Shown: positions 23,401 to 38,400 of the stretch, piece by piece
Numbering within the stretch: position 1 is the first letter of the stretch
How the letters are laid out: the number at the start of each line of letters is the position of its first letter
Assembly: GCA_033239525.1 (NCBI GenBank)
Contig: BSYO01000034.1
Location: 1,302,001 to 1,366,000 of the forward strand
DNA from: Nepenthes gracilis
Taxonomy: Eukaryota > Streptophyta > Magnoliopsida > Caryophyllales > Nepenthaceae
Length of the DNA stretch: 64,000 nt
Reading direction: 5' to 3'
Translations under genes and position numbers: made by a program
Notes under the pieces: generated by a model
What the model was told of the DNA's origin: nothing
The model's database searches: none
Seen by the model: only the letters and a program-made list of their open reading frames with translations

Positions 23401-26400
23401 ACACAAAAAATGGAAACGAAATCAATGCTAATTTTGATTTCCCTTCATTATTTAAGCAACAAAGTGATGTGAACGGAGGAGGAAGCACAAGCTGAAAGAA
23501 TGACGAAGCCTCTATTAGCAATGTTGTCGGAAGAAAAGTAAGAAATTGAGACAAGTAAATTTTTCATTTCTTCTTGTTAATGCTAACGTATTGCTTGCAT
23601 GCCTTGATTTTGTGGGATTTGTGGCTTCTCTTTGTAAATCGAAAAGTTGGCTGACACAGAGGTGGTGAGGGAAACAAAAGAATTTTGAGGGCTTTGTGAC
23701 GATCTAGGGCACAATAATTTATGGGTATATACTAAAAACAATCTTTGTTTTACATGCTAGACTTTGGAGGTTTGGATTTCATGGATTTGGGGCAAAACAT
23801 GAGTCATGGTAAACAAGGCATTGAACCTTGTTTGGATGACCGAAGCTGGAGCAATGGGTGAAATGGCGAGAGAATGGCTAGTGGATTTGGAAGCCAAATG
23901 CATTAATGAGGCCTATGGATTGTGGGTCTGGGTATATGGATGTATAATTATACAGATGATGTGTACACATATGCATACATGAGGTTGTATAGGCAAATGT
24001 AAATGTGGTGTGTATAAGAACATGTATCCATACAGGTATGAATATATATGGTAGGATGTATGTTGCGTGTGCATATACAAGTTACTGTAGATGTACGAAA
24101 AAAATACATATATATGGCACACGTGCGTGCACACACAGATACACGTACACACACACACACACATACATATATAAGTTGGTTCAAGGAGAATATTAAGGGT
24201 ACTATATTATTCAAATTGGACCCTTGTAGGATGAGCTAGAATGGTTGGATAAAATGGATAATCACAAGTTTGCTTGGTAGCGATGAAATAAGATTTTGTG
24301 CCATTAGAAATAAGATTTGGTACATTGGGCTAGCCGATGAGGATTGAACAAGATATTAAGGGGTCAGCCGAATATTCAAGAATTTTCTTGGAATTTTATC
24401 AGTTTCCATGTTATTTGATTCTTTGTATTGACTTAGACTGTGTGCATATATTTTATTAGTATTCCATATATAAGTAAAGGAGAGTACATAAAATTCTAAA
24501 TTATTTAGACGGATGGGAATCCGTGAAACATTAGAGTAATCTGTATTTTTTCGATAACTATTCTAGTTCAAATGTTAAGATCGTTGACCTTGAGGAGGAA
24601 TGCTTATAACTTAGTGACCATCGTAAGAGATAATACCAAGGATATTATTGTTGAGGGATCATAGATGGTATAAATATGCTACAGGTACAGCCTATGGGAT
24701 GACTATAAGAGTTATGAGAATACTATAGATTTCGAGTAACCTTATGATACTTACTCCACCATTAGAGGCGTAAATACACGATTTTTTGGCTCACGATGAT
24801 ATAATAAAGTCCAAGGAGATTTCTATTATCTTGTATAGTAATAACCTTGTATTGAATTGATGATCGGATTTGGTAGAATCCCTATTAGATTCCTGATGTC
24901 CAATTGTCCATATGACTTTTGGGTCATTAAATGCAACATGACATTGAGTCTCAGACAGTAATTGGTAAATCGCATGCTATTATTGATATTATATATTTGA
25001 TATTATAGTCAGAGATACTTATACTCTTGTATTATTGATGTTATTTACTTGTTAGGCATTTGACTCACTCTTACATTTTATTGATTCTAGATTGAAGAAC
25101 TACCGTAATACTAGACGGAGTTTGTTGGATTACTGTTGAGTACTAAGTAGAGACGATTTTGAAATTTGAGGCTTATGAAGAGAGTGGAAATATTACTGCA
25201 TCTCTTGATTTTGATGGCTGTACTAGACATTATATTCAAATTATATCCGGAGAATTAATAATTAATGATGTTTTAATTTTGAGTTCATTTATGACGATGG
25301 ATGTTGGAATTTATGATGGATAATTGATAATTTTGATGGTTTGATATTTTATTTGCATGGTCAGTCTGGGTTGGGTTTGGGTTGCCACAAAACCCTACAA
25401 TGCTTAAACATATATTCTACATTTATGCCTGGATATGACTAACATAGCCTACAGTTTTCCTGCTTCCAAACTGATCCTGACCTTAAAGAAGCATACAATA
25501 CAAACTAGAAAGCAAAAGCATTGAAAGGAAAAGACTTGGCAGCTATACCAAAACCACTTCTCCAAAGTCTAAAACATTTAGTTAGCTGAGGGCTTAGATG
25601 CTGTCCAATTAAACTACCTAATATTGATCAATATACTTGTTAGAGGGTAATAAATGAATACTTCGTTTTAGTCATTAGTGCAATATTACCAAAACTACTG
25701 GAAAATCAGCAAGAAGAATCTAAAGAATCGCTTGTCTATTTATCTAATTTGCAAATAAAATCTAAATCCAAACTAAAGTGATTGGTCAACAAAAGACCCT
25801 CAAACTACATCTTCCAAAACTCGAGACAGCGATCACAACTAAATCACAAACTATTTTTCACTTTTCATCCAAACCTTTGTCATAAATCATGGCATTAATA
25901 AGACTGAAAATACCATTTGAGAATTCAAAAGATAAGTATGGAAGCCATAGTCCTACAAGGAGTGAAATACCAAAAGCATACCATACCTAACTGAAATTTT
26001 TATTTCATCTCCTAGTTGTGACGTCCCACATCCTCATATACACTTAATGAGATGTTATACTACATATAAGTCCACAAAATATATAACCTTTATACATAGG
26101 ATTCATATGATGCCATATCAAGTGGTTCAAACTCCGTATGTCTAGAATATGACATTAGATTCTTTAGAGATGCTACTAGGAACCAAAAGTTGTCACCATA
26201 AAAATTTGTGGAAGCATAAATAACAACCATAACAATTGTGGAAATGCAACCAAATGATCAACACCAACATCGTGTGTATATATATATATATATCCTCTTT
26301 TATTCATTACAAGATGGTGTACATGACTTTCTAATATCAAATTACCCATTACAAGATACTACATTATGACATCAAATTTACATTATATCACCATCTAATC

Positions 26401-35400: not shown

Positions 35401-38400
35401 AGGAGGTGAATCAACCCCTTTACCCGGTGCTAGTAGCAGCTCCTTCCAACAAGAGTGATTCAGCATCTTTTATTGATTTTATTTAAGGCTCGTAGGCAAG
35501 TAGAGAATGAAGAAAAGAGAGGAAAACCGTGTGAGGAAGAAAAATCTAGCAAGAGGCCCAAATTTGATATCAAACAAACTTAACATCTTAATTATGTGGT
35601 GACCAAATGGCCTAAGGAGCTGAACCGGTTACTAAACCGGATCTCTGAATAGCAAGATGTCTTGCTGAATTGCATCAGGATGCAGTTGGGAATCAGCCTT
35701 TGAATCAAGACCAATCCGAACCCCAAACGGGTTGAACCGGCAGCCATGATGACTTAAATTTCTTATGGTGATATTTAAGTATCACCCTGCAAAAATTAGC
35801 CTTAAACCAGTCATAAATCAGCCCCCAAAATAGGAATAAAAACTGTCTGCATCAAAACATTACTGATGCAGAATTTGCAGCTATAATTCTGACCCGAACC
35901 AGCTAGAATTTCACCTGAACCGGCCATAAACCAAATAAACACTTAAACATGAGTTTCTTAGCTGTAATTGGACTCCTCGAACAGGTCTTGAATTGGCCAT
36001 AAAATCAGCAAAGACGGAACTGGTCCTTTGCTTCCTTATTGAAGCTGAATGTGACAGCTTGAAAAAGTTGATTGAACCGGACCCAAATTGATTGAATCGG
36101 CATTCGGCTCAGCCATAGTATCATGTACTAAGGTTGACCTACCTACCCATGAACTGGTCGCCCAAAACGCTTTGAAATGGGTACTAAATCAGACCCTTAA
36201 AAATGCACCCGAACCGGCCCAACACCCTTGAGGATGATTATGGCAGTTCCAGAAAATGGACTAAATCGACCTTGAACCGGTTGAACCAGTATCCGCCCTG
36301 ACTAAGTCATCAAGTACTAAAGTTGAACTATCATCCTACAAATCAGTGTCCAAAAATACCTTGAAGAGAATACTGAACCAAGGCCCTAAATAGGTGTTGG
36401 AACCGGGTGACGGCATCCATGTTGATGCGGGAATTAGGGCTACTGAACTGGCCTAATTTTTATTTCCAAATCAGTTAAACTGACACCCAAATTAACTAAA
36501 ATATTATAAACTAATGTTAAGTATCAATAGGTAAAAATATGACTTGAACCGACCCTAAATTGGGCCACAAACTAAGTAAAAAGAATAGGTCAAATGCTGA
36601 AATTTCAGCAAATAGAGAGGCCTTGAATCGTTGAATCGGTTCATCTAAACCAGTTTACAAGTGATAAAAATAAATAATAAATATTGGTACAAGCCAATCC
36701 ATTGAATTGGCCATTAATCAACCATGAACCGATAACCAAATCCACAAGTAATTGTGCTAAGAAATTAACCCAAATTGACCCTGAACCAACTACTGTACTA
36801 GCAACCGAATCAGCTAAATATTTCACATGTTAAATCTGAATTTTTAACACACGTAAAAATTTAAGGTTAAAGCTATAAAACTGAAAAAATATATCAATTT
36901 CTATTACGATTTACGATTTATTTATAATTACTGCATTTTATGATTGTATGCTCGATATTATGAAAAGTATATGGAAGCTTTGTAAGTTCCATTTGGATAA
37001 ATATTTTCCCCCAGAATAGAGAAAATTAAGAATTATGAATAATGTGAAAGTTTCCTTATGAAGTTTTGAACATGGATTAAAAAACTGGACTAAGTAATCA
37101 TTTTCAACGGGTGATATTCCCTAACATACCTTAGGATATTATAGTGAAAACTCGAGGACTGCCTATCAATTGTGGGGGTACTTTTGGTAGCATTTTTGTT
37201 ATTTGGCCCCGTATACTGGGTTAAAAATATACCTCTCACTATAGGGTGTTGAATTGCGTGGGTCTGCACTTTAGATTGTGTGAAAGTATACACAATCATT
37301 TCTTCGATTGACCGCTTCGTTAGTTAGTAAGGTCTACTAGTTCTAATCTCTAAAGATAAATAATGAAGGACAAATAATAGTTAAAAAAATCAGAAAAGTA
37401 AAGTTAAGGAAGTCAAAAGTTTATATATGTTCTTGAATGATTCCTGTTCCTTTAAATTATATTTTTATTTTAAGTATAAATGTGCATGTCTTTATTTTTT
37501 TTATCTGTAACTTGCTAAACATTTGACTCACTCACTTGATATTTTCCTAACCCCTAAGATAGAAGGTATAAGATCGTATCAGGTGATTAGGATTGAGCCG
37601 GAAGGTGATTACGATCAGACGATGATGAATTGTAATGTATTGGATAAATTTGATGTTGGAAATGTACTCTATCTTGTAATTAATAAAGAAAAGAAATATA
37701 TACAATGTTGATGTTGATCATTTAGTTGTGCATCCGCTAATAGTTATGGTTATTATTTATACTTCCGTAAATTTTTATGGTAATATAGATACTATTTATA
37801 ATAATAATATATTTATGGACTTATATTATATGTATTATGACGTCTCATTAAGTATAAAAGAAGACGTGGGACGTCACACTAGTTGTCCTAGACAGAGGGG
37901 AGAAATCAACACAAACTCCTTGAAAAAATGAAAAACAATAATGCACTTCAGAATCAGTAAATGCTTCACCAGACTGCTTCCTACATCACATTAAGACTTT
38001 TACTTTCTATTTTTTTTTCTCTTGATATGACCTCAGTTTGCTTCTAGCTCGAAACAAGTACTTTTCTGAAAAAATTATATGCATAAATCTGCATAGTTAA
38101 GCATGAAACACCAGGTGTACACCAAATGAAGATTGGTGAATAAAAGAAAAATCGTCCATGGTCAAAGCCATCTAGTGAAACCATAATTGAAGGCAGTACT
38201 GTGAGCAAAAATGCTTACTTGCGACAAATCGTCTTATCTTGGTTGTACTTCCTGGCCAATGCCATCAAAGACGGCTCAATAATTCCACCTCGAAGCCTCA
38301 GAACAAGATGCAGAGTGGACTCTACATAATCAAGCACATTTTCCATTTAACAATCCAATCAGCAGACACAATACTACTGATCCAAATCAATAAGAATAGG

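Follow-up and report, generated by a model that had tools for sequence, protein, structure and literature searches.

The 64,000-nucleotide stretch of Nepenthes gracilis DNA analyzed here (contig BSYO01000034.1, positions 1,302,001 to 1,366,000 of the forward strand; called the window) contains an 11,862-bp unit of the long terminal repeat (LTR) type at 26017-37878, in which the two LTRs are inverted relative to one another. The unit is an unusual, decayed accident of a known kind of element, an old plant LTR retrotransposon. We consider it to be the remnant of one integrase-mediated insertion of an aberrant LTR-retrotransposon complementary DNA (cDNA) with a misoriented right LTR and two U3 termini, a reading to which we give a probability of roughly 0.6. 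A single insertion, by whatever route, is judged likely, at a little under three chances in four. This conclusion is drawn mainly from a 5-bp target-site duplication (TSD), together with the exact termini of the unit, and it is placed below near certainty because inverted same-family LTR pairs and recombination after insertion are both known.

Inverted LTRs within one target-site duplication

The unit opens with TGTGACGTCCC and closes with GGGACGTCACA, and TGTGACGTCCC is exact at both termini (26017-26027 on the plus strand and 37868-37878 on the minus strand). The pentamer CTAGT lies directly outside each end, at 26012-26016 on the left and 37879-37883 on the right, both read directly from the sequence. 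The perfect duplication around a large unit that was reported in a preliminary description of this DNA is confirmed. TSDs of 4-6 bp are a feature of integrase-type LTR retrotransposons. Two random 5-mers drawn from the window are identical by chance with a probability of 0.0017 per pair. At an arm divergence of 14.8%, simple arithmetic gives a probability of ~0.45 that all five TSD sites still match, so a perfect pair is unsurprising for one old insertion.

Self-BLAST of the window aligned 26387-28416 with 37626-35555 at 83.9% identity and an E value printed as 0.0. The inverted arms are beyond doubt, and the earlier observation of two large inverted LTR arms holds. Collinear blocks pair 26017-26117 of the left arm with 37878-37776 of the right arm (minus strand), 26195-28416 with 37781-35555 (2.2 kb), 29889-30169 with 35543-35262 (or its tandem copy 28917-29189 with 35543-35271), 30282-30446 with 35268-35095, and 30442-30730 with 32708-32422 (90% identical). 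The outer 2.3 kb of the arms is ~85% identical, with differences at 336 of 2,267 aligned sites (14.8%; Kimura two-parameter (K2P) distance 0.171). An assembly fold-back is an unlikely source of the inverted arms because they diverge by 15%. The alignment starts at the first terminal base of each arm, and the outward flanks (60 bases, compared by eye) are dissimilar; a genomic inverted duplication was rejected on these grounds.

The left LTR is complete from terminus to terminus (26017-30757, plus strand, 4,741 bp; TGTGACGTCCC...TATGACGTCACA), as defined by its termini, the adjacent primer-binding site (PBS) and homology to the right arm, and its U3 end faces outward. It has TG...CA bounds and a short terminal inverted repeat (TGTGACGTC...GACGTCACA): the first 9 bases of U3 recur at the start of the reverse-complemented U5 end, after which the two read CC versus AT. 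The LTR ends with GACGTCACA at 30757, followed by GG and then by the PBS-like TGGTATTAGAG (30760-30770, plus strand), which starts 2 bp beyond the LTR end. Apart from one change, TGGTATTAGAG is taken to be complementary to the 3' end of plant initiator tRNA-Met. A PBS directly inside the 5' LTR is a feature of LTR retrotransposons. The pattern TGGTATYAGAG occurs once in the window, and shuffled sequences contain it 0.15 times on average, with at least one occurrence in 14 of 100 shuffles. The assignment is convincing because of its position right after an LTR-type terminus and not because the pattern is rare. The U5 tip and PBS-like sequence that the preliminary description placed in the center are thus present, but the PBS follows the left, normally oriented LTR.

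The PBS fixes the polarity of the unit. Because it adjoins the end of the left LTR, U3 starts at 26017 and U5 ends at 30757. Because the U5 end sits beside the PBS, both outer termini are U3 and not U5 as originally labeled; the labels were interchanged because the U3 start and the reverse-complemented U5 end share the 9 bases TGTGACGTC. A normal LTR retrotransposon has direct LTRs with one U3 and one U5 outer end, whereas here the arms are inverted and the unit has U3 at either outer end. The abnormal part is the right-hand LTR, since two U3 ends face outward and the PBS adjoins the left LTR. The preliminary description had proposed one integration of a molecule with an inverted 5' LTR. A single integration of a molecule with mutually inverted LTRs remains the best-supported reading, but the PBS follows the left LTR in normal orientation and it is the right-hand (3') LTR that is inverted.

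The inverted right-hand LTR (32422-37878, minus strand) has its U3 end outward at 37878, lacks the U5 tip and is broken by a nested LTR. It has no counterpart of 28417-28916 of the left LTR and lacks one of the left-arm tandem copies. Right-arm homology ends around 32411-32422, leaving the final ~20-27 bp of U5 absent. The stop is abrupt, given the 91% identity of the adjoining U5 block (17 differences in 188 sites). The U5 tip, PBS and leader gave no signal past the end of right-arm homology, where 87, 72 and 75 of 150 shuffles reached the score at lengths of 60, 100 and 150. Just inside the right arm, the minus strand gives a weak PBS-like match, whose score was equaled in 39 of 500 mononucleotide shuffles and in 148 of 3000 draws of random windows; draws that fell at 30600-30900 were passed over but are still counted in the 3000. 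With an anchor picked post hoc, after the match had been seen, 0/150, 0/150 and 1/150 shuffles did as well at lengths of 40, 60 and 100. Neither CTAGT nor ACTAG occurs within 31500-32480, so no separate duplication is seen at the inner end of the right LTR. An independent right solo LTR with CTAGT at both edges was rejected on this evidence. The left LTR is followed by GGTGG and the PBS, not by CTAGT, and the arms do not fit the pattern of two solo LTRs each with its own duplication, the case that the preliminary description named as fatal to its proposal.

Between the LTRs lies a remaining internal region of 1.66 kb (30758-32421, plus strand) without a long open reading frame (ORF); the longest stop-to-stop frame overlapping it is 69 amino acids. 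No signal was found between the first half of this region and the reverse complement of the second half (7 of 50 shuffles equaled the score). When the 542-bp leader was compared with the reverse complement of 31900-32421, 12 of 200 shuffles matched the score.

Origin of the inverted arrangement

We infer a template switch during reverse transcription as the source of the malformed cDNA. The growing plus-strand DNA, made on the internal region, would leave its template and prime some 20 bases before the U5 end of an LTR plus strand, which could be its own (snap-back) or belong to a co-packaged copy. Copying would then run to the 5' end of the LTR plus strand. This end is set by cleavage at the polypurine tract and is the U3 edge. 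The product would be a linear DNA with two integrase-competent U3 ends, which integrase could join to an ordinary 5-bp staggered target. Later, a solo LTR would have been left in the right arm, the left arm would have acquired a tandem duplication, and both arms would have decayed. The switch model predicts an inverted LTR that ends at the U3 edge and lacks U5 sequence at the jump point, and this matches the observed structure. With an internal switch point, both the absent U5 tip and the lack of signal in the anchored comparison past the end of homology are expected. That integrase could recognize two U3 ends is plausible because the U3 and U5 ends have nine terminal bases in common.

Several points weigh against this reading. 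It concerns a single locus, chosen by a reader on the lookout for such features, and the LTR edges, polypurine tract and internal order lack confirmation from an intact relative. A match of five bases is slim evidence. At 14.8% of sites (K2P 0.171), the difference between the outer arms is too large for origin from one template to be shown. Divergence is also uneven, at 14.8% in the outer part versus 10.5% or 12.0% in the inner part (z 2.92 or 1.89, depending on the tandem copy used), which could reflect two templates or merely uneven decay. The switch point itself is only inferred. The weak minus-strand PBS-like match inside the right arm, if real, would favor the joining of two 5' ends instead.

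Two independent elements of the same family could instead have inserted in opposite orientation, with a deletion joining the left element's internal region to the right element's LTR and the flanking pentamers matching by chance. We regard this history as unlikely, although it carries appreciable weight. It accommodates outer arms that differ at 14.8% of sites and a right LTR with a truncated inner end. Opposite-direction LTR pairs of one family within 20 kb do occur, and two such pairs were removed by hand from a cucumber survey, in a passage that is silent on TSDs (PMC4600303). Recombination after insertion is also the commoner source of odd structures; in ~7 Mb of Triticeae sequence, recombinant complexes outnumber template-switching ones by 20 to 2 (Table 1 of PMC1950507). 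However, flanking TSDs are not expected around complexes in which two insertions have recombined (PMC1950507), and the CTAGT pair would require a coincidence of ~0.0017. The inner edge of the right LTR shows no second duplication, though a deletion could have removed one. In a quite improbable route, two cDNAs each insert one U3 end at the same target in a concerted reaction, and the cell then trims their distal ends and links them together. This would leave a pair of U3 termini within one TSD and an inner junction that is truncated; divergence between the arms is permitted from the outset, and the weak, equivocal PBS-like match inside the right arm would fit. The cost is two molecules in one integrase complex plus end joining, and leader or PBS sequence at the identity level of the neighboring U5 was not found beyond the right arm. 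This route has the single-integration conclusion in common with the insertion of one malformed cDNA and is not separable from it here.

The preliminary description held that a later inversion must break exactly at the LTR edge. That argument is softened by the 9-bp terminal inverted repeat, which could in principle mediate a flip of the 3' LTR of a normal element with the TSD kept; because TGTGACGTC stands at the U3 start and, reverse-complemented, at the U5 end, a unique break at the edge is unnecessary. Nine bases are nevertheless a very short homology, and a flipped LTR should keep its U5 tip beside the polypurine tract. The tip is absent and inspection by eye of 32360-32421 revealed no apparent tract, and we give the flip very little credence. 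As little credence goes to a DNA transposon with long terminal inverted repeats (TIRs), Ginger-like or foldback, in place of an LTR element. Inverted arms, TG...CA ends and a short TSD are compatible with such a transposon, and the passage on Ginger elements in PMC2836005 reports TGTNR ends for Ginger and 5-bp TSDs for the related TDD-4 and TDD-5. The same passage gives Ginger1 TIRs of ~40-270 bp with 4-bp CCGG/CCGT TSDs and Ginger2 TIRs of ~50-180 bp, whereas one block of the present arms alone spans 2.2 kb, and the Ginger1 definition does not describe the unit. Moreover, the left arm has the full extent of an LTR, with both termini, and a PBS comes directly after it. Self-integration, offered in the preliminary description as one source of the molecule, fits poorly and was rejected in the form proposed: the HIV-1 autointegration products described in the relevant passage of PMC5314604 are nicked, inverted or modified circles. 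Such circles would require a further break at the LTR edges to give a linear insertion.

Later changes and other repeats in the window

The right arm contains a nested solo LTR of a distantly related family (32709-35094, minus strand, 2.39 kb; TGTGACATACCG...CCGGTATATCACA on the minus strand). Its termini are LTR-like (TGTGATATACCG...CGGTATGTCACA in plus-strand reading), and it splits a stretch that runs unbroken in both left-arm copies. The pentamers on either side of it, ATTAT and CTCAT, resemble a 5-bp duplication that has decayed. The strand was assigned from a block at 34225-34278 that is common to the right arm. The distance of the common block from the U3 start is 829 bp in the left arm, 724 bp in the right arm and 816 bp in the nested LTR. 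Because these distances are similar, the nested LTR is taken as a distant relative of the main LTR in the same orientation as the right arm. At the start of the window, 1-2785 holds a long tandem duplication (52-1635 with 1172-2767, 84%), and part of it (1762-1887) matches 34821-34944, inside the nested solo LTR, at 78% identity. At 2022-2032, GGTACGTCACA looks like the start of a minus-strand LTR of the nested-LTR family.

The left LTR carries a 0.98-kb tandem duplication (28614-30545, plus strand; copies 28614-29600 and 29601-30545) with a K2P distance of 0.076 between copies over 944 aligned sites. The K2P distance of the right arm is 0.137 to left copy 1 and 0.122 to copy 2 in block a, with corresponding values of 0.173 and 0.152 for block b and 0.146 and 0.081 for block c. 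The right arm lies farther from each left tandem copy than the copies lie from one another in blocks a and b. Copy 2 is slightly nearer the right arm in block c (7.4% versus 9.6% differences). At the 43 compared sites that differ between the copies, the right arm agrees with copy 1 at 16, with copy 2 at 25 and with neither at 2. These comparisons suggest that the left tandem duplication is probably younger than the split of the arms, although block c alone does not show this. A second, 63-bp tandem duplication (30752-30877, plus strand) encompasses the LTR tip, the PBS and leader sequence, and its copies differ at 8 of 63 sites.

Other repeats are found outside the unit. A second pair of inverted arms, 54798-55737 and 57175-58079, is ~0.9 kb long, 82-85% identical and ~1.4 kb apart; inspection of its edges by eye revealed no clear TG...CA ends or TSD. 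It lies beside cytochrome P450-like frames at 58790-61050 on the minus strand. Among the best 120 of 667 matches to the P450 frame at 58793-59425 on the minus strand, two Nepenthes gracilis proteins rank first, at 97% and 92% identity, ahead of a Drosera match at 77%; this frame thus points to Nepenthes or a very near relative as the probable source of the window. The direct repeats 15925-16579 and 22333-22951 are 79% identical, and TGTGACACCCC stands at the head of the first, at 15925. This arrangement suggests an old ~7 kb LTR element in which the start of the 3' LTR is degraded. A further pair of direct repeats, 47695-48830 and 52994-54167, is 72-75% identical and ~5.3 kb apart.

Comparison with known systems

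If the unit is a single insertion, reverse transcription can give integrable DNA with outward-facing inverted LTRs, and a plant integrase can use two U3 ends. The weight of the finding is limited to that of one old, decayed locus. LTR finders generally search for direct LTRs. TSD-flanked insertions with inverted LTRs would be missed by these programs or curated away, and two opposite-direction pairs were indeed removed by hand in the cucumber survey passage cited above (PMC4600303). Additional copies of such a layout, if they exist, would make inverted-LTR elements a propagating class and not an accident. The inverted arms, if transcribed, could conceivably form double-stranded RNA that seeds silencing of the family. 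The Nepenthes mirabilis genome is described in the relevant passage as ~65% transposable elements, with Gypsy-type LTR elements at 35.52% (PMC12244726). An exact-pattern scan of viral contigs, from which records of the window's own genome were perhaps left out, returned 0 matches. Among the matches listed from the open-licence PMC literature, no title or opening of an abstract describes a TSD-flanked element with one inverted LTR, which is no claim that one is absent from print.

The unit has partial likenesses to several classes of element. It resembles non-autonomous elements of the large retrotransposon derivative (LARD) type in its LTR of over 4 kb and its internal region without a long ORF. 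LARDs have direct LTRs, whereas the arms here are inverted, and the internal region may be truncated rather than originally non-coding. Like the tyrosine-recombinase retrotransposons of the DIRS type, it is a retroelement with inverted terminal repeats. According to the passage in PMC5633606, however, DIRS-1 has ORFs for a tyrosine recombinase and is believed to integrate in circular form, whereas TG...CA ends, a 5-bp TSD and a PBS are found here. The authors of the Ginger study suggest, in the passage cited, that Ginger1 TIRs may derive from two opposed LTRs, one of them from a second element inserted upstream (PMC2836005). This locus likewise has two opposed LTRs, and opposed LTRs with one shared TSD, if confirmed, would be a simpler route to Ginger1-like TIRs. 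It differs from Ginger in its much longer arms, its PBS, its CTAGT TSD and a center without a long ORF, as judged by frame lengths only, and there is no evidence of mobility. It is very doubtful that the locus is a natural example of the proposed step from LTR retrotransposon to TIR transposon, movable again in principle by integrase supplied in trans.

A plant precedent exists in the TSD-flanked, template-switching complex LTR retrotransposons of grasses (Sabot & Schulman 2007; PMC1950507). As in those complexes, the unit is most likely an aberrant reverse-transcription product that was inserted once, and a 5-bp TSD surrounds a non-canonical arrangement of LTRs. The grass complexes have three LTRs, one of them internal, two complete internal domains and very similar outer LTRs (PMC1950507). 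In contrast, this locus has two LTRs, one of which is inverted, that are ~85% identical and enclose a short internal remnant. Among the literature covered, the TSD-flanked template-switching complexes are the closest relatives in print, and the locus looks like a new variant of them.

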